From: a virus
Length of the DNA stretch: 22,876 bases
Reading direction: 5' to 3' (one strand)
Virus record (IMG/VR): IMGVR_UViG_3300025889_001013
Coordinates: 1-22,876 of that record
Under the pieces are notes generated by a model. It made no database searches. It was given only the letters and a program-made list of their open reading frames with translations, and was not told the origin of the DNA. Within the stretch, counting starts at the first letter, position 1. Each line of letters begins with the position of its first letter. The position numbers were made by a program, and so were the translations under genes. Of the stretch, positions 186-22,876 are shown piece by piece.

Positions 186-1723
186 CTAAAGAAATTGTAA
201 CACCATATATTGTAACTTTTTACAAAGAACAAAAAAATAAAGAAAAAGGAATTAAAGTAATTCTTAGAAAAAATTGGTATCCTAATGCAACAGGATATGT
301 TTATTTGTGGACATTCGAAAAGAATGGAGAGACTTGGTATTATCTTGGATACCATTCAATTAAAATTAATGAAAAAAAGTTTTATGATTTTTCAAGTCAA
401 GTACCTAAAATGAAAGAACTTTACATAGATGAAGATTGTCAAAAAACAATAGAAGTTTTACATTGGGGAACAGCTGAACAAATGAAAAAGAAAGAAGAAG
501 AATTACTTGAAATGGTAAAACATAGATTTTGGAACAATGGTAAAGGTGATTACTTTAACCAAAAAATTCAATACACTTCTGGACATCAAATATCTGGTGT
601 TGATTTAAATCTTGTAGCTCAAATAAATAAAGAAATTGAGATATTAAAAGATAAGAGAACGGATAAGTATGATGAGTTAAAAATACTAAGTCCAGACCTA
701 ATTAAAGAAAACTATTCTGCAAAAGAGTTATCTAACTTACCAAACTTACAAGTAAGAGAGGCTGCAAAAATTAAAAGTTTAATTACAGAACTTCAGTTTC
801 TTATTCAAACAAAAATAGACAACCAAGAAGATATTAAAGAGGGAGCTAAATGTGTGGTTGTTTTGGAAGATAGAGATTACTATTTAGACGGCAAACATAT
901 TCATTGGAAGTCGGTTCTTATTTGTGGTAAACATACTTCAGACTCTTATGGTAGTGGAGACAATAAATGGTCAGATTCTGCTGTATTAGATGTAATAATT
1001 ATACCAAAATCTATTCATCAAAACTGGAACGATATGGAGGTTTGGAAAATTGCAAATGGAGACAATGAAAGGTATAACTCAGTAGAACCTATAACTAAAG
1101 ATGACATTGTAAGAGAATATCAAGTTATGGTTGATAACAACTTAATATGGGAAACTGATGAAGAACATAACAGAGTTAAAAAACTATTAAAATCTAAAGA
1201 TGCTTGGAAGTATATAAAAACTCAAATGGAAAGTTATGAGTTGGATAAGAAAAGAGCTCAAAAGGGTTTGGGCCCACGAATAAGTTGGGGTACTGTTTCA
1301 AATCAACATAGGAAAGATTTAGAAAAAAAGATTATAAAATTAAATGGTGGGACTGACGAAGAATTAATTTCTAATTATTTTAAAAATGGAATTTTACCAA
1401 AATCAGTCTACCATAAGGGGCCTCATACTACTGAAATAGTTAATCCCTATGTTCAAGTCTTTGGCCCACTTACTACTAAAGTTATAAAATATTGTAATGA
1501 AAATGGACTTAGTGATAAACAGATTGAAGAATGTCTTGATAGTTTTAAGAAATCAATACAATTAATAAAATATTACTTGTATTTTGCAAATCCATCAGCA
1601 AAAAGAAAGTGGGAAAAAAACAATAGTCATAGAACTCAAATATTTGGAGTTGGTGATTATTTTCTTACTCACGATTATGATTATGAACTTCTTGATGAAT
1701 TTGAAAAGGACATTACTACATAG
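182..1723 (+). CDS. GIY-YIG-type endonuclease, homing-like, with long C-terminal region
   Basis: This 513-residue protein starts at an ATG in an ATGA overlap, with AAAGGAAC upstream as a weak ribosome site. Residues about 36-115 look like a GIY-YIG nuclease domain: GYVY at 38-41, YYLG at 53-56, a Tyr-containing YDFSS at 68-72, then 'GT-AEQM-KKEEELLE' around 96-110, which can supply the metal-binding Glu, and a 'GDYFN' element soon after. Similar modules occur in T4 Seg-type and other phage homing endonucleases. The usual catalytic Arg after the YIG strand is not obvious; residues 53-85 contain Lys but no Arg. Residues 130-513 are charged and largely helical, and I do not recognise them; they may bind DNA. 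It may be a free-standing homing nuclease or a nuclease linked to the neighbouring modification genes. The nuclease fold is moderately supported; its role is open. Confidence 0.6.
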   Translation: MTKEIVTPYIVTFYKEQKNKEKGIKVILRKNWYPNATGYVYLWTFEKNGETWYYLGYHSIKINEKKFYDFSSQVPKMKELYIDEDCQKTIEVLHWGTAEQMKKKEEELLEMVKHRFWNNGKGDYFNQKIQYTSGHQISGVDLNLVAQINKEIEILKDKRTDKYDELKILSPDLIKENYSAKELSNLPNLQVREAAKIKSLITELQFLIQTKIDNQEDIKEGAKCVVVLEDRDYYLDGKHIHWKSVLICGKHTSDSYGSGDNKWSDSAVLDVIIIPKSIHQNWNDMEVWKIANGDNERYNSVEPITKDDIVREYQVMVDNNLIWETDEEHNRVKKLLKSKDAWKYIKTQMESYELDKKRAQKGLGPRISWGTVSNQHRKDLEKKIIKLNGGTDEELISNYFKNGILPKSVYHKGPHTTEIVNPYVQVFGPLTTKVIKYCNENGLSDKQIEECLDSFKKSIQLIKYYLYFANPSAKRKWEKNNSHRTQIFGVGDYFLTHDYDYELLDEFEKDITT

Positions 1724-2475
1724 TGAATAAATTCTTTGATTACGGATACGAAAACATCAAGTGTGATGTTGAACTACCAAAACCAATCATTGAAGAATTT
1801 GACGGAATTAAAGTTGTTCGAGATGATTTGTTAGACGGAGGAACTAAACGAAGAGCCTTCACCAAGTATGTTGCATCACTTCCTAATGTTCAAGAGTTTG
1901 TTTATGCTTCACCACGACAAGGATATGCACAATTATCTTTGGCATATGCTTGTAAAGATTTAAACAGAAGATGTACCGTGACCGTACCAAAGGGTAAACG
2001 ATATTGGTTGACTGATGAAGCAGAAAAGTTAGGTGCAAATATTATTGAAGTTCCAATGGGATACTTATCAAACATACAACATAAGGCAAAAGTTTATTGT
2101 GAAGAAACTGAATCACACTTAATTCCTTTCGGTGGAGACCACCCGATTATTATTCAGGCAATGACAGAAACTGCATTAAGTTTAAACATCAATCCAACTG
2201 AAGTCTGGACGGTAATGAGTAGTGGTGTATTGAGTAGAGGTTTACAACAAGCATGGCCAGATGCAAAAGTTTATGGTGTACAAATCGGACACAACACAAC
2301 AGAAGAAGAAATGGGTAGGGCAGAAACATTTCGTTCTAAATATGAATTTCAACAAGAGTGTAAAAAAGATGAACGACCACCTTTTCCAAGTTCACTAACT
2401 TACGATAGTAAGGCTTGGACTTTCATCAAAGAACACGCAACAAAGGGAGCATTATTTTGGAATGTAGGAAAATAA
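1723..2475 (+). CDS. Fold-type-II PLP-dependent enzyme
   Basis: A 250-residue protein that starts at GTG, sharing a base with the upstream TAG. Residues 33-44 read R-D-D-L-L-D-G-G-T-K-R-R. Lys42 in this GGTK context is the likely Schiff-base lysine, as in ACC deaminase and D-cysteine desulfhydrase relatives ('GN-K'). Residues about 60-75 (YASPRQGYAQLSLAYA) fit the substrate/cofactor helix, and the S-S-G-V-L-S-R-G-L segment near 165-173 fits the phosphate-binding glycine loop. It is shorter than the roughly 330 residues usual in cellular homologues, but it runs from PLP lysine to a defined C-terminal block (F-I-K-E-H-A ... F-W-N-V-G-K), so it looks complete. Substrate and reaction cannot be read from the sequence. 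Beside a glycosyltransferase-like gene and a possible methyltransferase, a part in nucleotide or DNA modification is a reasonable guess. The stop sits in GGAAAATAA, discussed as a finding. Confidence 0.75.
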   Translation: MNKFFDYGYENIKCDVELPKPIIEEFDGIKVVRDDLLDGGTKRRAFTKYVASLPNVQEFVYASPRQGYAQLSLAYACKDLNRRCTVTVPKGKRYWLTDEAEKLGANIIEVPMGYLSNIQHKAKVYCEETESHLIPFGGDHPIIIQAMTETALSLNINPTEVWTVMSSGVLSRGLQQAWPDAKVYGVQIGHNTTEEEMGRAETFRSKYEFQQECKKDERPPFPSSLTYDSKAWTFIKEHATKGALFWNVGK

Positions 2476-3626: not shown

Positions 3627-4423
3627 TGCAATTAACAGAACAACAAATACAAGATAATTGGAATAAATTAAGAACAATTATCAACGATACATTTACAGGA
3701 GAAAGATTAGTAAATCTAAATAAAATGTATGACGACTTTGAAGATAGAATGTGTATGGCACCTGCAAGTGGAAAGGAACATTTTCATAATGCATTTGTCG
3801 GTGGGTATGTAGACCACGTGTTACACGTGATTGATTTTGCTTTAAAGATTAATAAAATCTGGAAAGACAACGGAGCACATATCAACTACACAGATGAAGA
3901 ATTAATATTCGCAGCTCTACATCACGACTTGGGTAAGATTGGAGATTTAGAAGGTGAGTATTATGTTCCAAACGATTCCGATTGGCATCGTAAAAATCAA
4001 GGATTAATTTTTAAACATAATGATGAGATTCAATATATGACCGTAACCGATAGGTCAGTATTTTTATTAAACCATTATGGAATTAAAATGTCTAAGTGGG
4101 AATATCTTGGATTAAGACTAACAGACGGAATGTATGAAGAAGCAAATAAAGGTTATTACACCGGTTATGTTCACGCAACTCGTCTTCGTAGTAATATTGC
4201 TTATGTTCTACATCAGGCAGATATGATGGCAACACATATCGAATATGATAAGTGGGAACAAGGTGATAGGGTTGAATCTGAAAAAGTAGCATTATCAGTA
4301 GATAAAATCAAAAGTGCAGTAAACACTCAGATTGATAAAAACAACGAAGTTAAAGAAAAGTTTACCACATCAACAGATGCGAAAGATATCTTTAACGAAC
4401 TATTCGGGGAGGCTAAAAAATGA
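3626..4423 (+). CDS. HD-domain phosphohydrolase
   Basis: A 265-residue protein with its ATG fused to the previous stop (TAATG) and GGAG at 3614-3617 as ribosome site. The HD signature is clear. The H-V-L-H-V segment at residues 64-68 lies in a helix that supplies the first metal-binding His. A-L-H-H-D-L-G-K at 97-104 supplies the His-Asp pair, and D-W-H-R-K-N-Q-G follows near 120. Later His and Asp residues (L-H-Q-A-D-M-M near 195) can complete the metal site. HD enzymes of this type remove phosphate from nucleotides or cleave cyclic or modified nucleotides. T4-like marine phages often carry similar genes beside nucleotide-metabolism genes. The substrate cannot be inferred. The last 40 residues are charged and probably lie outside the catalytic core. 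Confidence 0.8.
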   Translation: MQLTEQQIQDNWNKLRTIINDTFTGERLVNLNKMYDDFEDRMCMAPASGKEHFHNAFVGGYVDHVLHVIDFALKINKIWKDNGAHINYTDEELIFAALHHDLGKIGDLEGEYYVPNDSDWHRKNQGLIFKHNDEIQYMTVTDRSVFLLNHYGIKMSKWEYLGLRLTDGMYEEANKGYYTGYVHATRLRSNIAYVLHQADMMATHIEYDKWEQGDRVESEKVALSVDKIKSAVNTQIDKNNEVKEKFTTSTDAKDIFNELFGEAKK

Positions 4424-4668
4424 TATATGCATTGTTAACAATTATTATCTTGACTTTAGGTTGGACTACATTTAACTTAACGAGAAAAGTAGAAAGACTT
4501 GAAACTTGGGTTGAGGATTACGCACAACGAATCCAAGACACACAAAATGTATTAAAAGAGATTGACCAAAAAGGAACATTTCAAGCTGATGATGAAATCG
4601 GTGTAGTGTTTCAATCAATCAAAGAAACCGTAGACGAGTTAAACGAAATAACAGAACAGGAGTTATAA
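4420..4668 (+). CDS. Small membrane-anchored coiled-coil protein
   Basis: An 82-residue protein that starts in an ATGA overlap with the HD gene, with GGGGAGG at 4407-4413 as a strong ribosome site. Residues 1-20 (M-I-Y-A-L-L-T-I-I-I-L-T-L-G-W) form one hydrophobic segment, followed by 'RKVERLETWVEDYAQRIQ', which has heptad spacing of a short coiled coil. The rest is acidic and helical. The layout suggests an inner-membrane anchor with a cytoplasmic helical tail. Function is unknown. It is coupled by TAATG to the sigma gene, so the two are made together. The coupling and strong ribosome site make it a real gene despite its size. Confidence 0.75.
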   Translation: MIYALLTIIILTLGWTTFNLTRKVERLETWVEDYAQRIQDTQNVLKEIDQKGTFQADDEIGVVFQSIKETVDELNEITEQEL

Positions 4669-5393
4669 TGCCGAGAGTAGCAAAAAAAGGTTCAACAAGA
4701 TATTACTTTACTGATGATACAGAAAAAGCAATCATCAGACACAACAAAGAAACTCGTTCACATATAAGAGAACGAATTTATAATGAACATATTAGACAAC
4801 CATTTGAGAAGTTGGCAGAAAACATTATTCATACATTTAAGTTTTATTACTTTGATGTTCCGAGTGAAGATGTTAAACACGAGGTTGTGAGTTTCTTATA
4901 TATGAATATGCATAAATTCGCCGAAGGTAAAGGTAAGGCATTTAGTTATTTCAGTATTGTTGCTAAAAACTATTTGATTCTACATAACAACAACAATTAC
5001 AAAAAACTAAAACAGACTGACCAAGAGGACGCTACTGATTACAAAAGAGATGCGTTGTGGGAAACACAACGAGACGATATCTTGGAAGGTCAAAAAGAAT
5101 ATATGGACTTATTCGTTGATTATTGGACAAATAATTTGACTACGGTATTTAAAAGAAAACAAGACATTGATGTAGCTAATTCAGTATTGTATTTAATGGA
5201 ACAAAGACAAAACATTGAAAACTTTAATAAAAAGGCATTATATATTTTAATTAGAGAAATGACTGGTTCCAACACACAACACATCACCAGAGTAATTAAT
5301 GTTTTGAAAAAACATCACGTTAATTTACAAAAGAATTATCTGGCGACTGGAAGTATTGAAACTAAGTTTACAGGTAGTTGGGATTTATTGTAG
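4668..5393 (+). CDS. T4 gp55-like late transcription sigma factor
   Basis: A 241-residue protein whose ATG overlaps the previous stop, with CAGGAG upstream. Residues about 45-105 match the reduced region-2-like core of T4 gp55 relatives: a long helix 'QPFEKLAENIIHTFKF', then D-V-K-H-E-V-V-S-F-L, then K-A-F-S-Y-F-S-I-V-A-K-N-Y-L-I at 90-104, the stretch that contacts core RNA polymerase and the -10 element. T4 gp55 has 185 residues. This one is about 55 longer and ends with a helical segment near 183-212 that could form a helix-turn-helix. Its role would be to direct host RNA polymerase to late promoters lacking a -35 box. It sits immediately before the structural operons, and a repeated promoter-like motif precedes each of those. 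The family call is based on pattern recognition, not on an alignment. Confidence 0.68.
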   Translation: MPRVAKKGSTRYYFTDDTEKAIIRHNKETRSHIRERIYNEHIRQPFEKLAENIIHTFKFYYFDVPSEDVKHEVVSFLYMNMHKFAEGKGKAFSYFSIVAKNYLILHNNNNYKKLKQTDQEDATDYKRDALWETQRDDILEGQKEYMDLFVDYWTNNLTTVFKRKQDIDVANSVLYLMEQRQNIENFNKKALYILIREMTGSNTQHITRVINVLKKHHVNLQKNYLATGSIETKFTGSWDLL

Positions 5394-5396
5394 ATG

Positions 5397-5424
5397 AAAA
5401 GGCCGATATTTCTACCGGCCTTTT
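5397..5424. terminator. Bidirectional intrinsic terminator
   Basis: AAAAGGCCG at 5397-5405 pairs perfectly with CGGCCTTTT at 5416-5424 across a 10-base loop. Because A-runs and T-runs flank the GC core on both sides, the hairpin can end transcription from either direction. It lies four bases after the sigma stop codon and eleven bases beyond the end of the minus-strand gene, between two convergent genes, as expected for such an element. Confidence 0.85.
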
Positions 5425-5434
5425 GAATCCACCT

Positions 5435-5656
5435 TTATTTGTTGAGTAATCCGAATATCACGATAAATGATAGAAATCCAGCAAATCCTGCGTCACCGAA
5501 AGAATTTACCAAACTAATCAAATTACCAACAATGTCTATTCCTAAGAATCCCCCTACAAATACTAATTGTACGAGAACACCTAAGCCGATAATGTGATAC
5601 AATAAGTCTTTAATTCCGACTATTGAATCCAATATCAATTTCATTGCGTCTTTCAT
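5435..5656 (-). CDS. Small two-helix membrane protein, minus strand
   Basis: A 73-residue protein and the only minus-strand gene I accept in the window. Support comes from a good ribosome site (AGGGGAAA, seven to eight bases before the ATG on the minus strand), a shared bidirectional terminator just beyond its stop, and no competing + strand gene over its span. Residues about 19-40 and 54-71 are hydrophobic, separated by N-L-I-S-L-V-N-S-F-G-D. The N-terminus carries Lys residues and the protein ends in N-K. Two helices in about 70 residues would suit a holin or another small inner-membrane effector, but nothing in the sequence proves that. Being transcribed opposite to both neighbouring operons suggests separate timing. 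Confidence 0.65.
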   Translation of the reverse strand: MKDAMKLILDSIVGIKDLLYHIIGLGVLVQLVFVGGFLGIDIVGNLISLVNSFGDAGFAGFLSFIVIFGLLNK

Positions 5657-5682
5657 TTTAGTTTCCCCTTTTAAATGAATAA

Positions 5683-5703
5683 AAGTCGGTTTTTTTCCGA
5701 CTT
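5683..5703. other. Perfect 7-bp hairpin in divergent intergenic region
   Basis: AAGTCGG (5683-5689) and CCGACTT (5697-5703) flank a loop of seven T on the + strand. Read on the minus strand, the hairpin is followed by TTTATTCATTT, a weak U-rich tail. It would then sit in the leader of the minus-strand membrane gene, 27 bases before its ATG. It could be an attenuator, a terminator for leftward transcripts, or an mRNA-stabilising stem. Confidence 0.5.
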
Positions 5704-5770
5704 CCTATATAACTATATGGTATTTTTAAAAAAATAAACCGATATATAAATATATATTCCCTTTTTTCCA

Positions 5771-5786
5771 CAATCTTATATTTATT
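5771..5786 (+). promoter_or_regulatory. Putative late promoter, copy 1 (before baseplate operon)
   Basis: CAATCTTATATTTATT ends 14 bases before the ATG at 5801. The same 16 bases occur before the gene at 20756, and 13 of them occur before the gene at 17977. I read it as a -10-type element for the gp55-like sigma. No shared -35 box is visible upstream of the three copies, as in T4 late promoters. If it is a -10 element, the leader here is only about eight bases and ribosome binding relies on AGGAAAA. The exact T4 consensus TATAAATA also lies nearby at 5745-5752. Strand assignment is inferred from gene positions; the reverse complement contains AATAAATA. Confidence 0.5.
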
Positions 5787-5800
5787 GATAGGAAAATACT

Positions 5801-6190
5801 ATGGCACACGATTATGAAATATTTGAAGGCAAAACCTTATCTGATGTGTTCAAAGACATCTACGATAATTCCAAAACCAATAAGAAACAATTAGAAGTCT
5901 TGATGAAAGAAGTGGTAGGGTTTATTAAAGACGGAGATACTGCCGTCCAGATTATTCCTATGCTCAAAGAGTATTTAGAAATCAATGTGAAGAACGACGA
6001 ACAATTAGTCAAGTTAGCCACAGTCGTTCAAAGAATTATGGCAGCAGAAAAAAGAGTATCAGATTCCGGAGATGAGTTCGGTTTATCAGACGCAGAAAAA
6101 CAACAACTTATGGATGCTATCGAACACGACGTTCAAGAGTTACAAATCAAAAAAGACGAAATAGACAATTCTATCAGCAGGGAAAATTAA
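5801..6190 (+). CDS. Small helical protein opening the baseplate operon
   Basis: A 129-residue, entirely soluble and strongly helical protein with no Cys or Trp. It starts 'MAHDYEIFEGKTLSDVFKDI' and ends in a charged helix (D-A-I-E-H-D-V-Q-E-L-Q-I-K-K). The middle region 'GDTAVQIIPMLKEYLEINVK' and the following 'LVKLATVVQRIM' look like packed amphipathic helices. I do not know a function. Its place, one base before the spike/hub gene and directly after the promoter motif, suggests a structural or assembly protein of the tail. Its length is close to T4 UvsY, but I see no UvsY-like sequence features, so I do not use that name. Confidence 0.7.
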   Translation: MAHDYEIFEGKTLSDVFKDIYDNSKTNKKQLEVLMKEVVGFIKDGDTAVQIIPMLKEYLEINVKNDEQLVKLATVVQRIMAAEKRVSDSGDEFGLSDAEKQQLMDAIEHDVQELQIKKDEIDNSISREN

Positions 6191-7762
6191 ATGGCTTATT
6201 CCGATAAGAGTTTCGGTGGTGCTATTGATAAAATATTTGATAACGATTTTATCACAAGAAAAGAGTTAGAAGATGTTCTCAAACAAAGACAAGTTACTGA
6301 ACACTTTTATCAAATAGAACCACTTGAAGTATTAGACATATATCGTCAAGGTGGACGAGTATCTCAACCAGGTGCAGTGATTGGTAGATATATTATTTCT
6401 GAACAAAATCAAAATTCTGATGAATGTTTAGAATTTTATCCATTGAGTTCCAATATACATCAACAACCTATTGTTGGTGAGGTGTATCTTGGATTGTCAT
6501 TTAGAGGAGAACGATATTATTTTGGTAGATTAACAAACAACACTACTCAAATTAATTCTCAAAATTTTAACATCAGCGGAATAACCGACAACACATCTCT
6601 TATTGGTGAAAATGGAAATGTGTTAAATTCAGAAAATGTAAAAAATAAAAGACCATTTAAACAAGGTGTAAACTTTGTAAATGACTATCCGAATAGATTG
6701 GTGTTTTCTGAAGGTGATACTACAATTGAAGGTAGATACAAAAACTCAATAAGATTGGGTAATAATGATTCATTAAATAGTGGTAATATAAAATTAGTTG
6801 CTGGTTGTCAAACCGGAATAGAAGATTTAACAATTGATAAAACTTCGTTGTATATGACTTCAAACGAAGAAGTGATTTTATCAGAACCTTCAAAGAATTT
6901 TGTAAGTTCAGACTATACAAAACCACAAATAGTTTTAGATACTGATAGAATTATATTGAATGCAAAAACAGATGAGATTGGATTGTTTTCAGAAAAAGAT
7001 ATAAACATTAGTTCTGAACAAGGTGATGTTTTGATTACATCAAATAAAGTTATTGAGTTGAAACCAAAGGGTAGTCAAATCATTAACAACATAAAATCTG
7101 GTGGAACTATATTGAATGCAACCAAAGAAGGAATACCTTTTCCACAATTAGATATTGTGGGATTTTTAAAACAAGTAATGGGAATACAACAATTTTTACA
7201 AGCAATGACTATTGGGGTTCCTAAATTATCTAATCCCCTTACCTTACCTTCTGGTGTAAGGGATATCGTTAAAGGATTGGAAGGTGCAAAGAATTTTATA
7301 GACGCTACAATTAACTTAGAATTTTTAAGTAAAGCATTAATGGAAACAAAAACAATTGAAGAAATAAAAGCAGTATTACCAATACCAGCAGGATTTGATG
7401 GTATCATTGATGATATATCAAACATTACTGATGAACAAATTAGTAAACTAAAAGAATTAGAAAAATCAGTTTCAGATAAAATAGAAAGTGCTTCACAATT
7501 AAATGATTTATTATCAGGTGATTCATTAAATGCATCAGGTATATCACAATTACTTGACTCTGGAAACTTTGATGGTTTTCAAGGAGTTGAGGATTTAAAG
7601 AGTGTTATCGCAAATGGAACTGATGGAAAGGATTTAGCAAACTATGTTCAACAAGGAGGAATTTCAAATTTTCAACAAGAAGTTTCTGACTTAGGGAGTA
7701 TAGTTGGTGTAGCTGACCAAGCTCAATCCTATCAAAATTTATTTAATACAGCAAGGAGTTAA
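6191..7762 (+). CDS. Baseplate central spike/hub protein, gp5-like
   Basis: A 523-residue protein directly abutting the previous stop. Residues about 38-116 are beta-rich ('GAVIGRYIISEQ' to 'RYYFGRLTNN') and fit the OB-fold domain of gp5/gpV-type spikes. Near 179-190, 'IEGRYKNSIRLGNN' matches an element seen in gp5-like proteins of marine T4-like phages. Residues about 245-295 form short alternating strands ('IVLDTDRIILNAKTDEIGLF') like the intertwined beta-helix needle of gp5 and VgrG. The last 220 residues are helical and Gln/Ser-rich. Unlike T4 gp5, no lysozyme domain lies between the OB-fold and the needle. The protein should form a trimeric membrane-piercing spike at the centre of the baseplate. 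The following gp25-like and gp6-like genes support the call. Confidence 0.7.
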   Translation: MAYSDKSFGGAIDKIFDNDFITRKELEDVLKQRQVTEHFYQIEPLEVLDIYRQGGRVSQPGAVIGRYIISEQNQNSDECLEFYPLSSNIHQQPIVGEVYLGLSFRGERYYFGRLTNNTTQINSQNFNISGITDNTSLIGENGNVLNSENVKNKRPFKQGVNFVNDYPNRLVFSEGDTTIEGRYKNSIRLGNNDSLNSGNIKLVAGCQTGIEDLTIDKTSLYMTSNEEVILSEPSKNFVSSDYTKPQIVLDTDRIILNAKTDEIGLFSEKDINISSEQGDVLITSNKVIELKPKGSQIINNIKSGGTILNATKEGIPFPQLDIVGFLKQVMGIQQFLQAMTIGVPKLSNPLTLPSGVRDIVKGLEGAKNFIDATINLEFLSKALMETKTIEEIKAVLPIPAGFDGIIDDISNITDEQISKLKELEKSVSDKIESASQLNDLLSGDSLNASGISQLLDSGNFDGFQGVEDLKSVIANGTDGKDLANYVQQGGISNFQQEVSDLGSIVGVADQAQSYQNLFNTARS

Positions 7763-16400: not shown

Positions 16401-17902
16401 TAAGTGCTAAACAATATGATTCTGGAAGACAAAAGATTTTATTTGAAACAACCGAAAGTTTATCAACACCAACAAGTAAATTTAATACAGAATTTATTTC
16501 ATCTGGTGATTTATATATCGGTGGTAATAGTAGTGCATTTGGAACACAATTTAGTGGTTCATTGATGGAGTTCAGATTATGGTCAGAACCATTAAGTCAA
16601 AGTGTATTTGACAATCACGTTCAAACACCAAAAGCATATAATGGAAATACATATTCATCATCATATGATGAACTATTATTTAGATTACCTTTAGGTGATA
16701 ATAATAATTGGTCATCACAACCAACAGCATCTGAAGTATCATACTTAAATACCTATCAAGGAAATATTACAGGTAGTAATATAAATGGATTTACATCAAA
16801 CTTCTTCAGAAGTATTGTAGACCAAGAAAAGATGAAAGTTCCAAATGTTGGCCCTAATCGTAGAAATGCAACCAAGATTAGAATTGAAACAAATAAGATA
16901 GAAAAAAATCTTGATGGAACTCAAACTCTTATGGTGGATAAAAGACGAGAAAGGTCTAATGATGATTTTGCACCACTTGATAGTAATCGTTTAGGTATTT
17001 ACTTTTCACCAGTTGATGTTGTCAATGAAGATATTATTTATAGTATTGCAGATTTTAATTTTGATGATTATATTGGAAATCCTAATGATGAATACGAACC
17101 AAATTATAAAGATTTAAGATATTTAAGAAGACAATATTTTAAAAGATATTCTAATTCAAATAATTTTTGGGATTACTTAAGATTATTACAATATTATGAT
17201 TCAAGTATTTTTGATACATTATTACAACTAACACCTGCTAGAGCTCATACACAAACAGGAATTTTAATTGAACCAAGTATATTAGAGCGTTCAAAACAAG
17301 TCGTAAGTAGAAAACCAGTATTTGATAATCAATATTTTGAAAATGCAGGACACTTTGGAGAAGGTATTAAAGTCACCAGATATATTAGTGGTTCTGATGA
17401 TAATTTTTTTGAAGTTAGTGGTGAATATCCTTATTATGAATCATTTATTAATTTAGCATATTTTGATACAGGTTCATCATTAGGATTTTTAAACAATCGT
17501 TCAATTGTGAAGTTAGACCAAATTGACAAACGAAGTGAATATGGTAGTTTATATGCAACCGCAAGTGTTACATTTGGTGGAACCAATACTATATTTACCG
17601 AAACTCTACAACCAATTATTACTGCATCCAGATTATCAGAACATAATGATGAATTAATATATTTCTATTCAAGTTCATATAGTGCATCGGTCGGGCCAAC
17701 ATTAGCATATAGTTCATCATTCTTCCGTTCAGATGTAGAAAGTATGGCATACTCAACACCACTATATAGAGTGTTTGTTCAAGGAACATTATTGACAATT
17801 GATAATTCAATAGACGGAGAAGAACCAGTAATCGTTAATGAAGTAGCACCTACCGTATTAAAAACACAAGAGAGTTTAATATCAAGGTTAAAGATAGAAT
17901 AA
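13448..17902 (+). CDS. Giant baseplate protein, gp7/P2 gpI-like with LamG-like domain
   Basis: A 1484-residue protein, larger than T4 gp7 (1032). Residues about 1-260 are a disordered Pro/Lys/Ser/Thr-rich region (P-P-T-P-A-P-E-S-K-P-K-Q-V-P-K-P-P). Residues 260-560 are mixed. Around 715-860 lies a helical core with 'VFLEFMDMVGQYFDEIYSYV', then 'LPFFIKAKGTERALKGLLNC' near 815 and G-I-P-S-S-I-L-R-V-R-E-Y. This K-G-T ... A-L block is the hallmark of phage tail protein I, the P2 counterpart of T4 gp7. Residues about 861-1070 resemble a LamG/concanavalin-like sandwich ('ALDFKAGQYIKVPW', 'DTVEFRFRTPYS', Y-I-G-G-N, 'MEFRLWSEPLS'). The last 400 residues are Tyr- and Ser-rich. It probably forms the wedge arm with gp6 and may display a glycan-binding domain. 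The last part of the operon ends here. Confidence 0.68.
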   Translation: MAKRAFITTNRRTDNENSSQSIREQSIESVSNTGRATAPVVESVKASIPPTPAPESKPKQVPKPPVSKPVTSIAKPQTVTATPIVSKTPPAPVLTIKEPTESTEDARDTTKPGNAANNIKKGYMPSRNDNVLTSVNEQIDTTNNTVKYQEPKPVQSFIQIPKPKPSVPTAPIKTIQSVGGVKVNAPVAPPRPNLNVDSGIKLDVPKPNNVVEGPTFKNSRTIVRPDGVTEVLSKDGIVLEEIGVNGKIIVDPIKDAGFDVKNPPASMKALQAEFKQHIESGADASGQPFYVSEQTKAALVADGLGDKGNSLTAKEQAEKIKNSPWLLNSVGYQILQKDLIKKGLLDPSPEVDSKDKKKAKEKVVNVKQVQANLKPQDYVATIKEVLDANRIRVSLSYNDGVNLYGHKGEDQVSKKFKGFKVNYVKNNIQRYKTYVKVENEYYLVVNSQLGVDGNQRILKVKQPLTSDVELGEGFTFVEKRLPDYRDRVRLIPFEEQENNHIFLRLPNFNSVDNPINFQGTNYQTHTGILTNNTNVANDLERILTSGSLLSVQPNIDYQKTTTDLTIENDDTGFGNFVHFSNAESRLRNFKKKLQLIEGYTSTSSSLVNVTSSLSTIQGIEDKRQRVINSFDPYETYLYYESSSYSSGSNGLFHDTCWPKSSSLDSAGRQTNHILSSTNPLSISWFNTMIASASLYDQGNMNSLRNTLPEHIYADTDNNVFLEFMDMVGQYFDEIYSYVNRFTDINNRVEKISEGISKDVAIEYAKALGLDLYTGNDILVLPTYLLGKDNSGNSLYESPQEEITEKIWKRVLANLPFFIKAKGTERALKGLLNCYGIPSSILRVREYGGPDKGTRVSYEIKRKFTYALDFKAGQYIKVPWKSVNSLYPDTVEFRFRTPYSVGNSGSMTIVQKDNDWAISLQDNGGADDYGYLKFSISASDGTTEYITSSLQPFYNDDMWSVMLTRKSSSGAEHTTENASFTSSYELSAKQYDSGRQKILFETTESLSTPTSKFNTEFISSGDLYIGGNSSAFGTQFSGSLMEFRLWSEPLSQSVFDNHVQTPKAYNGNTYSSSYDELLFRLPLGDNNNWSSQPTASEVSYLNTYQGNITGSNINGFTSNFFRSIVDQEKMKVPNVGPNRRNATKIRIETNKIEKNLDGTQTLMVDKRRERSNDDFAPLDSNRLGIYFSPVDVVNEDIIYSIADFNFDDYIGNPNDEYEPNYKDLRYLRRQYFKRYSNSNNFWDYLRLLQYYDSSIFDTLLQLTPARAHTQTGILIEPSILERSKQVVSRKPVFDNQYFENAGHFGEGIKVTRYISGSDDNFFEVSGEYPYYESFINLAYFDTGSSLGFLNNRSIVKLDQIDKRSEYGSLYATASVTFGGTNTIFTETLQPIITASRLSEHNDELIYFYSSSYSASVGPTLAYSSSFFRSDVESMAYSTPLYRVFVQGTLLTIDNSIDGEEPVIVNEVAPTVLKTQESLISRLKIE

Positions 17903-17921
17903 TAACGGAAAAATTTAACTT

Positions 17922-17934
17922 TCTTATATTTATT
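17922..17934 (+). promoter_or_regulatory. Putative late promoter, copy 2 (before fibre-type genes)
   Basis: TCTTATATTTATT lies 20 bases after the stop of the giant baseplate gene and 42 bases before the ATG at 17977. It matches the core of the copies at 5774-5786 and 20717-20729, although the preceding CAA is AACTT here. A good ribosome site, ACAGGAGC, follows at 17963-17970. No hairpin terminator is visible between the upstream stop and this motif, so read-through from the baseplate operon is also expected. Confidence 0.5.
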
Positions 17935-17976
17935 AATGAATAAGAATAGTTATATCATTCCACAGGAGCAAAATAA

Positions 17977-18690
17977 ATGGGATTTTTAGATAATACAAGT
18001 ATAACAGTAGATGCTATCTTGACAAAAAAAGGTCGTGAACTTTTGGCAAGAGGGCAGAACGAATTTAGAATTACAAAGTTTGCATTAGCAGACGACGAAA
18101 TAGATTACAATCTATGGGATACAGCACACCCAAATGGTTCAAACTATTATGGGGCAGTGATTGAAAATATGCCTTTATTGGAATCTTTCGTAGATGAAAA
18201 TCAATTGATGAGATATAAATTGGTAACACTTCCAAAGGAAACAGCAAAACTTCCTATTATGGAATTACCAAGTCCTTCACTAACTTTCAATGGAGCAGGT
18301 ATTACACAAACCGTAACACCTAACACCCGTAATGGATTGGATAGTTCATATACATTTACATTGTTTAATGCAGATGTTGCAAACTTAACATTAATAGGTG
18401 GTGCACCACAAGTTAGTACACCAAAACCAAACTTAGGTGGTTCTGCTTTTGCAAAAGGAATACAACTTGATGAAAACGAGTTACAAGCATTAAGTTCTGG
18501 AGCAACTACACCAGTATTCTTAAACGAAGTAGATAGAAAACGCTCTATTACAGTAATTGGTAAGAGTGTAAGAGTAATCTCAAGGTCATTAACAACACTA
18601 ACAAATACTAACTTGTCTATAACAGGTAATCAAACCGGAGCATCACAAACCATATCGATTACTGTTAAAGCAGACCCAAGTAAATTATAA
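17977..18690 (+). CDS. Probable virion structural protein
   Basis: A 237-residue protein with a strong AGGAG ribosome site. The N-terminal half has a distinctive run, 'MGFLDNTSITVDAILTKKGR' then L-L-A-R-G and 'ITKFALADDEIDYNLWD', followed by N-Y-Y-G-A-V-I-E-N-M-P. I associate this pattern with structural proteins of marine T4-like phages but cannot name a T4 counterpart. The C-terminal half is beta- and Thr/Ser-rich, like a small immunoglobulin-type or fibre-tip domain ('SYTFTLFNADVANLTLIGG', 'LSITGNQTGASQTISITV'). It heads a three-gene block after the promoter motif, and the next gene begins ten bases after its stop. Confidence 0.65.
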   Translation: MGFLDNTSITVDAILTKKGRELLARGQNEFRITKFALADDEIDYNLWDTAHPNGSNYYGAVIENMPLLESFVDENQLMRYKLVTLPKETAKLPIMELPSPSLTFNGAGITQTVTPNTRNGLDSSYTFTLFNADVANLTLIGGAPQVSTPKPNLGGSAFAKGIQLDENELQALSSGATTPVFLNEVDRKRSITVIGKSVRVISRSLTTLTNTNLSITGNQTGASQTISITVKADPSKL

Positions 18691-19723: not shown

Positions 19724-20698
19724 ATGTTCAAAAATCTTGACCCACAAGACATTTCAAAGAAAGCATTTCAAAGCTTTAAAAGATATAACTTTTCCAACAA
19801 TAGTAGTGGAAGTGGTGTATATTCTATTAAGGCTCGTTCAGGTTCAGCTTTCAACTATGTAAGTTCATCAGATGATTTCACAACTATAACTTCTGGTTCA
19901 GTAAGTACTAATTTTTATTCATATCCAACTTATGCTATGTTGAGTAATTTATTTTATTCTGCTAAAGGAACTGAATATATTAGAACTAATGCTACCAAAA
20001 GAGAACTTCACACTTCCGCGTCAGTTATTAGTATTCCAAGAAATGCATTTGGTGAAAAAATAAAACCATTATCATTAGATTTAGATGTTACGATTGGAAG
20101 CAATACATTTACTTTGAGAGATGACGGAGAAGGAACTATCTATGATAATGCCCATTCTGCAAGTTTTGCGGCATTCAAATCAAGTTCATTTAATAGAAAT
20201 CAAGGTGTTCAAGCAAACGGAAGTGGTTCTGATGTAGGTAATATTTTTTATGAACAAGGTTTAATTGTATTAACTGATACCGGTTCATACACAGGAGATA
20301 TTACAGGATTTTCTTTAAAATATCAAGCAACACAAACTCATTACGAATATGAATATTTGGTTGTTGTTAAACCAGGAGAATTCAATACAACTACAAACAT
20401 TAGTGTTACACCAGGTAGAAGTGGTAGTATCACTATGGCAGAGGGAGTTGTCAGTATGTCAAACTATTTCCCACCAGGTGTTCAACCAAGTGGAGCAGGA
20501 ACAGGTAGTTATGCAAGATTTTATAATGCATCTTCAGAAGCATTGGGTTTTGTAACTGAATCTACTTTTAGACCATATGTTACAGATATTGGTTTATATA
20601 GTGAACAAGGAGAACTATTAGTTCACGGAAAATTAGCAAAACCTATCAAATTATCAGACGATTATTCTACTACTTTTGTAGTTAGATTTGATGTCTAA
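19724..20698 (+). CDS. Probable tail fibre/collar-type virion protein, paralogue B
   Basis: A 324-residue protein ten bases after paralogue A, with only a weak ribosome site (GGACACTCT). It begins 'MFKNLDPQDISKKAFQSFKR' and is otherwise Ser/Gly/Thr-rich and beta-prone. The C-terminal 40 residues carry the same GLY-x4-ELL-x3-KL-x-KPI block as its neighbour and end in V-V-R-F-D-V, against K-V-K-L-D-F. A stretch 'GNIFYEQGLIVLTDTGSYTG' also has a counterpart there. Most of the rest has diverged, as expected for virion surface proteins. It ends the fibre-type block; no terminator hairpin is visible after its stop. Confidence 0.62.
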   Translation: MFKNLDPQDISKKAFQSFKRYNFSNNSSGSGVYSIKARSGSAFNYVSSSDDFTTITSGSVSTNFYSYPTYAMLSNLFYSAKGTEYIRTNATKRELHTSASVISIPRNAFGEKIKPLSLDLDVTIGSNTFTLRDDGEGTIYDNAHSASFAAFKSSSFNRNQGVQANGSGSDVGNIFYEQGLIVLTDTGSYTGDITGFSLKYQATQTHYEYEYLVVVKPGEFNTTTNISVTPGRSGSITMAEGVVSMSNYFPPGVQPSGAGTGSYARFYNASSEALGFVTESTFRPYVTDIGLYSEQGELLVHGKLAKPIKLSDDYSTTFVVRFDV

Positions 20699-20713: not shown

Positions 20714-20729
20714 CAATCTTATATTTATT
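20714..20729 (+). promoter_or_regulatory. Putative late promoter, copy 3 (before secreted protein)
   Basis: CAATCTTATATTTATT is identical over 16 bases to the copy at 5771-5786. It starts 16 bases after the stop of paralogue B and ends 26 bases before the ATG at 20756. The predicted leader holds ACGGAGAAAA as ribosome site. Sharing the element ties the signal-peptide gene that follows to the phage late programme and argues that it is a phage gene. Confidence 0.55.
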
Positions 20730-20755
20730 ATTGACAAAAACTCACGGAGAAAACA

Positions 20756-22876
20756 ATGTTTCGTTCATTAAAATTAATGGTTATGTCATTAGTGATGTTT
20801 GGTTTTGCCTTTGGACAAACCCCAATCATACGAGTAAAACAATTAGGTAGTTGGTCTACACCGCAAATGTGGTGGAAAGACTCAGTTACACAAAATTTAG
20901 ATACATTTCTAGCACAAGATACATCTAATCCAGCATACGATAATAATAATTTTGATATCTGGAGAGATAAAATCTTAGAAATGGAAGTCACATTAGATGA
21001 TAATGGTGCAGATATTACTGCACTTAGATTTGATATTGCATTTGATAACGACTTAATCACTTGGGTAGAATCAGGTGAAACATCAATCAACGCTTGGTCA
21101 CAAGGAGATTCCAAAGTTGTTAAAGGAGATTACATTGACGATTGGACTGAAGGTGATGAATCATCAGGTGCAGATTATTCTTTTGAAGTGGTTCATTATG
21201 CAAACACCGGTTATCAAGATTCATTAGCCGTTGGAACATCCGAAACATTATATGAAGAAAGTATTTCCGACAACAGATACGATTGGTTAAGAATCACAAT
21301 GGTTTCACACGGAGTTGATGCCGATTCCGACGGAACACCAGATTATACTTTTGGTAATGGTGACGGAACTCAAACACAAGTAATAAAATTATATTTTAAA
21401 ATCAATGATGTGGTAGATGATTTTGCACCAAGAGCATTTAGAATACCAACATTTTATAATGGTTCATCAGGTTATTACACTTACGCTTCTGATGATTATT
21501 TATTAAATTATAAAGTTTACATTGATGGTAATTGGGGTGATTATTATACATCAGAAAGAACTTATAATGGTGGTGCTCGTGGTGATATCACACTACATCC
21601 AAAACTCGTAGACATTGAAGGATATATGAGATACATTGGAGAATACGACGGAACAAATGCATTCTCACGAAACAAATATCCATTTTGGAAAGTTATCTTT
21701 GAAGTAGATGAAACTAATCCAGATAATCTTTCTAATTGGAGAAATATACGAGACATTAATTATCCAACAAGTTTAACAGACGAATCTCTAAATGATGATG
21801 TTATGGGAACTTACGACGAGTATGGAAACTTCGCATTGGGGTATCAACATATGAGATACTATGAACAAAATGCAGGTTCAACATCAGACCAAAAAATTCA
21901 AAATCAAGGATTTAAAGATGTAAGTTATTGGTATTGGACATACACAGATGATAAAGGATACTTTAATATTTCTTTACCACGAAACAACAGATATCGTGTA
22001 TCGTTCTGGCCACCAGAAGCAGATGATGTGGTTGGAGACCATACCACTTATACATTGGATAGAGGTGCAATCACCAACATTAACGACGCTATTGCATCAT
22101 TTAATTTCCAATCCAACAAATACGAAAACTCAAATGATATTGATGTCGCAACACCAAGTGCATATTTAATCGGTGATGTAGACGGAGATGATGTATTTCA
22201 ATTAAACGATACATATTTCTTATGGGCATATACATCAGGAGTGTTCGATACAGATTACACACACTACAATGGAGAAACTTATCAACAATGGTCAAGTATT
22301 GATAATTTAAAATCCAACGGAACATCAGAAACTTTAAATTATTATCAAGCATATGATGGATTCACAAGAAACCAAAGACGAGAGTTCAGTATATTTGTTG
22401 ATGATGATTTAGCACAAGAAACCACAACACTAACACAAGATGCTGGTGGTGTGATTTATTTAAATCCTTTGATGGACGAAGTTCAAACCGGATTAGATAC
22501 ATTGAGTATTAAGATTGGGGCAGGTAGTTCTACATTTGGAAGTGATGTAAATCCAGATTATTTATTTAAAACAACTGATTCATCTAAACAAGTAGATATC
22601 GTTGGAACGGATAATGATTCAGATATCGGATATTACTTTACCGGTGATATGAATTTAACAGGTGTTAAAGTTGATGTAAACGGAACAGCAACTACACCAA
22701 CTCTTGACGGAACAACATATTATCGTTGGGGTAATGGAACACCACCAGACGAGTGGTCAAGAACTCAAGAGATGAGAAACTTCTTAGCCAAGACTGATGT
22801 GTTCTTAACTTTACCAGCAGATTCAACAGTAAAAGTTCAAGCAGGTAATCAAGTTGTAGTTCCATTAACCATTACA
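20756..22876 (+). CDS. Secreted multidomain protein with cohesin-like and dockerin-like parts, partial
   Basis: The frame stays open from ATG 20756 to the window edge, giving 707 residues with the C-terminus missing. Residues 1-20 form a Sec signal: basic M-F-R-S-L-K, a hydrophobic core, then F-A-F-G before Q21. Residues about 70-230 look cohesin-like ('ADITALRFDIAFDNDLITW'). Residues about 280-420 resemble a carboxypeptidase-regulatory-type beta domain ('KGYFNISLPRNNRYRVSFWP'). Residues about 471-495 carry one dockerin-like calcium loop, G-D-V-D-G-D-D-V-F-Q-L-N-D-T-Y-F-L. The last visible residues, V-K-V-Q-A-G-N-Q-V-V-V-P-L-T-I, look like the first strand of another cohesin-like domain. Such proteins are normal for cell surfaces of FCB-group bacteria but unexpected in a phage tail region. 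Function could be surface display, glycan binding or superinfection exclusion. The signal and dockerin-like loop are visible; the domain names are tentative. Confidence 0.65.
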   Translation, partial: MFRSLKLMVMSLVMFGFAFGQTPIIRVKQLGSWSTPQMWWKDSVTQNLDTFLAQDTSNPAYDNNNFDIWRDKILEMEVTLDDNGADITALRFDIAFDNDLITWVESGETSINAWSQGDSKVVKGDYIDDWTEGDESSGADYSFEVVHYANTGYQDSLAVGTSETLYEESISDNRYDWLRITMVSHGVDADSDGTPDYTFGNGDGTQTQVIKLYFKINDVVDDFAPRAFRIPTFYNGSSGYYTYASDDYLLNYKVYIDGNWGDYYTSERTYNGGARGDITLHPKLVDIEGYMRYIGEYDGTNAFSRNKYPFWKVIFEVDETNPDNLSNWRNIRDINYPTSLTDESLNDDVMGTYDEYGNFALGYQHMRYYEQNAGSTSDQKIQNQGFKDVSYWYWTYTDDKGYFNISLPRNNRYRVSFWPPEADDVVGDHTTYTLDRGAITNINDAIASFNFQSNKYENSNDIDVATPSAYLIGDVDGDDVFQLNDTYFLWAYTSGVFDTDYTHYNGETYQQWSSIDNLKSNGTSETLNYYQAYDGFTRNQRREFSIFVDDDLAQETTTLTQDAGGVIYLNPLMDEVQTGLDTLSIKIGAGSSTFGSDVNPDYLFKTTDSSKQVDIVGTDNDSDIGYYFTGDMNLTGVKVDVNGTATTPTLDGTTYYRWGNGTPPDEWSRTQEMRNFLAKTDVFLTLPADSTVKVQAGNQVVVPLTIT

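Follow-up and report, generated by a model that had tools for sequence, protein, structure and literature searches.

The last gene on a viral contig (IMG/VR record IMGVR_UViG_3300025889_001013) is likely the first gene of a late phage operon that would display a phage-made protein on the cell surface by way of the host type IX secretion system (T9SS) and a shuttle encoded by the phage. The window, by which we mean the whole stretch of 22,876 nucleotides that was analysed, ends within this gene (Table 1). Domain content, gene order, the promoter motif and the signal peptides are read directly from sequence; the PorV-family gene, the cargo C-terminus and the remaining cassette of the window phage lie outside the window and are taken from its relatives. 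Judged by these features, infected cells probably display the phage-made protein on their surface.

Table 1. Coordinates of features at the cargo gene, in positions of the window.
Feature	Position	Strand	Remarks
Promoter-like 16-base motif CAATCTTATATTTATT	20714..20729	+	also before baseplate operon (5771)
Shine-Dalgarno-like GGAGAA in short leader	20740..20755	+	abuts cargo ATG
T9SS cargo gene (C-terminal sorting domain predicted from homologs)	20756..22876	+	aa 1-707 of about 949; cut by contig end
Sec signal peptide	20756..20815	+	aa 1-20; mature protein predicted to begin at Q21, in line with the Q-rule of Bacteroidota (PMC5837995)
Small beta domain	21902..22018	+	aa 383-421; weak fn3_3/CarboxypepD_reg-like match
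Dockerin-like calcium-loop motif GDVDGDDVFQLND	22172..22210	+	aa 473-485; no Pfam dockerin match
Cohesin domain start	22793..22876	+	aa ~680 on; remainder past window

Architecture of the cargo protein

The reading frame of 707 aa is open at the window end, without a stop codon. It lies directly downstream of the tail block, with gp25/gp6-like baseplate genes upstream, in agreement with its initial placement right after the tail genes of a contractile-tail phage. The proposed Sec signal is likewise borne out; the N-terminus, MFRSLKLMVMSLVMFGFAFGQ, is of the Sec type (the signal peptide was assigned by eye and by conservation), and the glutamine at mature position 1 is invariant among 45 of 45 distinct full-length homologs. 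The GGAGA-type leader ahead of the gene is kept in close relatives. Two further assignments of the initial annotation stand in part. The ‘regulatory’ beta domain (aa ~383-421) amounts to a weak match, to fn3_3 at E 0.006. The calcium-loop motif is conserved in 44/45 cargo homologs, but the Pfam dockerin model, a profile of two calcium loops, finds no match at E≤1 in any of the 45; the cargo is therefore called ‘dockerin-like’ only. An Rfam search returned no matches.

Close relatives of the cargo are encoded on 31 IMG/VR contigs, and a profile search retrieved 125 stretches; closed homologs range from about 870 to 1020 aa. Of the long ones the nearest, at locus L001, has 949 aa, and its C-terminus is a T9SS type A sorting domain (aa 855-947; TIGR04183, 35.6 bits versus a cut-off of 23). 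The same domain is found in 44 of the 45 distinct full-length homologs (TIGR04183, E≤0.001), and Pfam Por_Secre_tail matches all 45 at E≤1. The C-terminal sorting domain for which the initial annotation proposed a check is thus present in the homologs, L001 included; the window itself ends before it, and the window gene, 95% identical to L001 over the shared part, is predicted to carry it too. Across 396 Flavobacteriales genomes, cell genes match the cargo only at aa ~840-949, that is, at the sorting domain, the sole exception being one phage contig inside a MAG. A tblastn search of public phage records with L001 gave no match to the cargo, a profile search found the Flavobacterium phage described below, and a pattern scan for the cargo in 85,000 species genomes found none.

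The cohesin domain proposed initially is real; as a correction to its placement, most of it lies outside the window (aa ~680-840 in L001, the first ~27 residues inside). Both the sequence profile and the predicted fold place it among cohesins: Pfam PF00963 is detected in 41/45 homologs (best E 6e-8), with L001 itself just below the cut-off (23.0 versus 24.1), and in a Foldseek comparison the predicted fold matches solved cohesins with TM values up to 0.80, to 1g1k. The model was built from 45 sequences (pLDDT 69.5, pTM 0.63; 14 sequences gave pLDDT 40). For its N-terminal ~680 residues the comparison gave loose beta-sandwich matches and nothing clearer, so no function can be read from them. 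The top structural match to the cargo model is BFVD A0A6J5M064 (E 4e-28), which comes from an uncultured phage and bears the name ‘Secretion system C-terminal sorting domain’. The structure search also turned up other proteins of uncultured phages with sorting-domain names; T9SS cargo may possibly be more common in environmental phages.

A conserved cassette with a PorV-family barrel

Downstream of the cargo, the relatives of the window share a cassette in the order PorV-family gene, CC134, LPP, OMP328, S171 and SPAN. With counts limited to contigs that extend far enough, a PorV/PorQ-family gene comes next after the cargo in 48/48 closed contigs, mostly ≤250 bases away (in three, one more short ORF is called in between), followed by CC134, a coiled-coil membrane protein (34/36); LPP, a lipoprotein (32/32); OMP328, a predicted outer-membrane protein (30/30); S171, a small exported protein (28/28); and SPAN, an inner-membrane-anchored coiled-coil protein (26/26). 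These cellular locations were read off the sequences. The contigs are partly near-identical and hence not all independent; the diverged ones agree, and the order is kept across phages whose best-segment cargo identity falls to about 45-50%. Initially it had been considered that the downstream sequence might be bacterial chromosome, the window then spanning a junction or chimera; phage genes follow instead, and their common order in dozens of contigs rules this out. Further downstream of the cassette, L001 carries a Nudix hydrolase (17559-17954, 56.2 bits) and a nucleotidyltransferase-like gene (19767-20309, GYFDPLHVGHLEY).

The barrel of about 280 aa that follows the cargo belongs to the PorV/PorQ family. 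In L001 it passes the family model NF033709 (95.1 bits against a cut-off of 90), 12 of 12 phage barrel members match the PorV family at E≤0.001, and the phage barrel profile aligns with the PorV of F. johnsoniae at both ends (structure 6h3i, E 1.4e-11). It scores under the equivalog cut-offs for true PorV (52 versus 250 bits) and true PorQ (61.5 versus 220 bits), and its role as cargo shuttle is accordingly putative. In a tree with long branches and an arbitrary root, the phage PorVs form a single clade apart from 17 cell PorVs (support 100/98). The corresponding genome scan for PorV brought up a single binned phage contig along with two PorVs from cells. Most short PorV-family paralogs in cells stand alone in their neighbourhoods. 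At locus L247, from a cell genome, a protein with a sorting-domain-like tail (3827-5881) directly precedes a PorV-family gene (5901-6860), possibly a cellular counterpart of the phage cargo/shuttle pair.

Among the remaining cassette proteins, LPP and OMP328 were absent from all 295 other Bacteroidota genomes searched, which makes this part appear phage-specific. A profile comparison shows LPP and S171 to be homologs (96.6%, E 5e-10), and the S171 profile aligns with Bacteroidota CsgG (89%, E 2e-6; decoys <1%; LPP itself reaches 3.5%). The cassette proteins have no match to CsgG in Pfam, and a PDB sequence search with the LPP, S171, OMP328 and cargo profiles gave nothing useful. The likeness of LPP and S171 to CsgG is suggestive only, that of a putative remote family at profile level. 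It is possible, if doubtful, that the phage builds a whole export and assembly apparatus, in which a PorV-type shuttle, a CsgG-like/OMP module and the host T9SS motor would produce a cohesin-dockerin coat guarding the cell or tethering progeny.

The same proteins invite a reading of the cassette as a lysis or envelope-disruption module, in which the membrane-anchored coiled-coil proteins and the lipoprotein would work as spanins do, and the barrel and the CsgG-like proteins would perforate the outer membrane. The alignment of S171 with CsgG pore proteins points that way, as do a weak match of SPAN to the Rz-like spanin family (E 0.0012) and the late position. We consider it unlikely, as no endolysin or holin was found in the cassette, a surface-tagged cohesin protein of 950 residues is not needed for lysis, and PorV serves the T9SS as a shuttle, not as an open pore.

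A related cassette in a cultured phage

Genes 13-19 of Flavobacterium phage vB_FspM_immuto (MW353176), which has a Bacteroidota host and makes up a cultured phage-host pair with Flavobacterium sp. LMO8, form a related cassette. Like the window phage, immuto combines a cohesin and a T9SS sorting domain with a related tail block. Its cohesin and sorting-domain protein passes both Pfam cut-offs and scores 47.1 bits against TIGR04183. LPP (E 2.8e-49), OMP328 (E 1.2e-14) and S171 (E 3.9e-15) also have homologs there, in the same order as in the cassette; PorV, SPAN and CC134 were not found in the immuto cassette. The immuto annotation calls these genes only ‘cohesin domain-containing’, ‘lectin C-type’ or hypothetical. 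Unlike in the window, the cargo is split into an anchor bearing cohesin and sorting domains and two separate exported proteins with dockerin-like parts. Gene 13 encodes a C-type lectin protein whose tail is dockerin-like (a weak cargo-profile match, E 0.004); gene 14, for the second exported protein, resembles the N-terminal part of the cargo by eye and layout, at a profile match that is not significant; the anchor is gene 15. The window cargo thus appears, by domain content, to resemble the immuto anchor and client fused in one chain, a likeness which suggests that a cohesin-dockerin contact may hold the immuto set together. By this analogy the split version gives concrete form to a scaffolding role, which we infer. 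On the gene 12 side (locus L253, MW353176 8000-20000), an exported DNA/RNA non-specific endonuclease (Pfam, 91.4 bits) stands just before the lectin gene.

Promoter motif and late expression

The initial annotation reported a 16-base motif common to the cargo gene and the baseplate operon, and CAATCTTATATTTATT is indeed present in exact copies at 20714 and 5771; a 14-base version stands at 17922, before the gene at 17977. In the relatives, where intergenic sequence makes up about 5.5% of bases, the gene strand carries 98 copies of TTATATTTAT, of which 87 are intergenic, and the opposite strand 9, none of them intergenic. The motif lies upstream of the cargo, the first gene, in 46/63 loci, never precedes PorV, LPP, OMP328, S171 or SPAN, and precedes CC134 in 5/39. 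This distribution fits a single putative operon under the same type of promoter as the tail genes. The ‘late’ expression first proposed has behind it the common promoter motif and the position after the tail genes, which suggest late timing.

The tail promoter motif would also suit a virion component, that is, an accessory tail fibre or receptor-binding protein with a chance signal peptide, and the cargo directly follows tail-fibre genes, in a place taken in immuto by genes for a tail fibre and a tail spike. This reading is very unlikely. A Sec signal obeying the Q-rule, together with a sorting domain, is present in virtually all members and would be pointless in a protein assembled in the cytoplasm, and the genes after the cargo also encode exported proteins. 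In immuto the cassette lies near nrdA instead, with about 70 kb between it and the tail genes.

A model for surface display

Our preferred model is of T9SS-dependent surface display, a form of the surface export proposed initially, in favour of which the sorting domain, the PorV-family shuttle gene and the Q-rule signals argue. Sec would export the cargo by its signal peptide, and the host translocon SprA would then carry it across the outer membrane by means of the sorting domain. The phage barrel would receive the cargo as a dedicated shuttle, making output independent of host PorV, and would either retain the cargo at the surface or pass it on to the surface. The mechanism is drawn by analogy with type B cargo of F. 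johnsoniae and the shuttles paired with it (PMC12618676). All type A cargo in F. johnsoniae uses a single PorV (PMC12618676), so a private phage shuttle is not obviously needed, and the immuto cargo without a detectable PorV also counts against the model. At the surface, the cohesin and dockerin-like parts would link proteins together. The purpose is the least certain part of the model and a guess guided by the immuto lectin: a change of the infected-cell surface, most likely one that would keep further or released phages from adsorbing, with adhesion or glycan binding ranked after such superinfection exclusion.

Relation to known systems

Cryophage genes with T9SS type A sorting domains have been proposed to use the host secretion system, as described in the part of the Nat Commun 2020 report considered here (PMC7468147), and they resemble the window gene in being type A phage cargo. 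They differ in that the cargo is variable (endoglucanase, GH39, PA14), and that part of the report describes no shuttle or conserved cassette (PMC7468147). In F. johnsoniae, type B cargo requires a cognate PorP/SprF shuttle, encoded immediately downstream of it (PMC12618676). As in the phage, the cargo gene adjoins a gene for its own outer-membrane shuttle; the phage cargo, in contrast, is type A, and the shuttle is of the PorV/PorQ family. The PorU-PorV pair of the T9SS is similar in that a sorting-domain protein is encoded beside PorV, as at locus L245. PorU is the sortase of the T9SS attachment complex, whereas the phage cargo has no sortase domain and the phage shuttle is short and forms a separate clade. 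Pelagiphages and methylophages carry CsgG/curli genes (PMC9004378, PMC7029224). The cassette may have in common with them phage-encoded outer-membrane export proteins of the CsgG kind; here the similarity is remote, at profile level only, and combined with T9SS cargo. In the open literature (non-subscription, non-preprint) we found no phage PorV or such cassette. Phage T9SS cargo is thus already known, and the phage shuttle and conserved cassette appear undescribed.

Small lipoproteins and sugar-modifying enzymes are known means by which phages change the surface of their hosts. If the model is correct, a conserved late operon that supplies the host secretion machine with a large protein, and brings along a shuttle of its own, would be a new way to seize the cell surface, and T9SS use would be a widespread trait of aquatic phages of Bacteroidota, themselves major degraders of algal sugars. 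The phages would also offer natural type A cargo/shuttle pairs for the study of T9SS cargo choice, and immuto with Flavobacterium sp. LMO8 is a system in which the idea is testable now.

Host assignment

The phage family is large and aquatic, and its hosts are very probably Bacteroidota. The glutamine at mature position 1 recurs in the cargo, PorV, OMP328 and S171, and the Q-rule is a trait of Bacteroidota rather than of the entire FCB group (PMC5837995). The FCB-type origin proposed initially is supported, as Bacteroidota, by the sorting domain, the PorV-family shuttle and the Q-rule signal peptides; Marinimicrobia, also considered as host, are disfavoured by the Q-rule. One cassette-bearing contig is binned in a Flavobacteriales MAG that encodes SprA, which is weak host evidence. 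The closest cultured relatives of the window baseplate protein include a Microcystis phage (46.2%) and Flavobacterium immuto phages (38.5%), and the window tail block is syntenic with both the Microcystis phage and immuto. No tRNA genes for host tracing were found in the window or in most loci.

It is scarcely probable that the cassette is a recently captured host gene cluster without special function (passenger or general auxiliary genes): the sorting domain, cohesin and PorV family all have Bacteroidota relatives and the cell pair at L247 exists, but the cassette order is kept in highly diverged phages, the phage PorVs stand apart from those of cells, and LPP and OMP328 occur in none of the 295 other Bacteroidota genomes.

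Other genes in the window

A gene at 1723-2475 (+), upstream of the tail genes, encodes a PLP-dependent enzyme-like protein (PALP, 40.1 bits, above the cut-off) and overlaps the next gene if the latter is read from a TTG start. In the window there is only one long intergenic gap, and it holds a reading frame at 5435-5656 (-) for a strongly hydrophobic protein of 73 aa, which could be a holin-like membrane protein; the GGCCG hairpin beside it is a possible two-way terminator.
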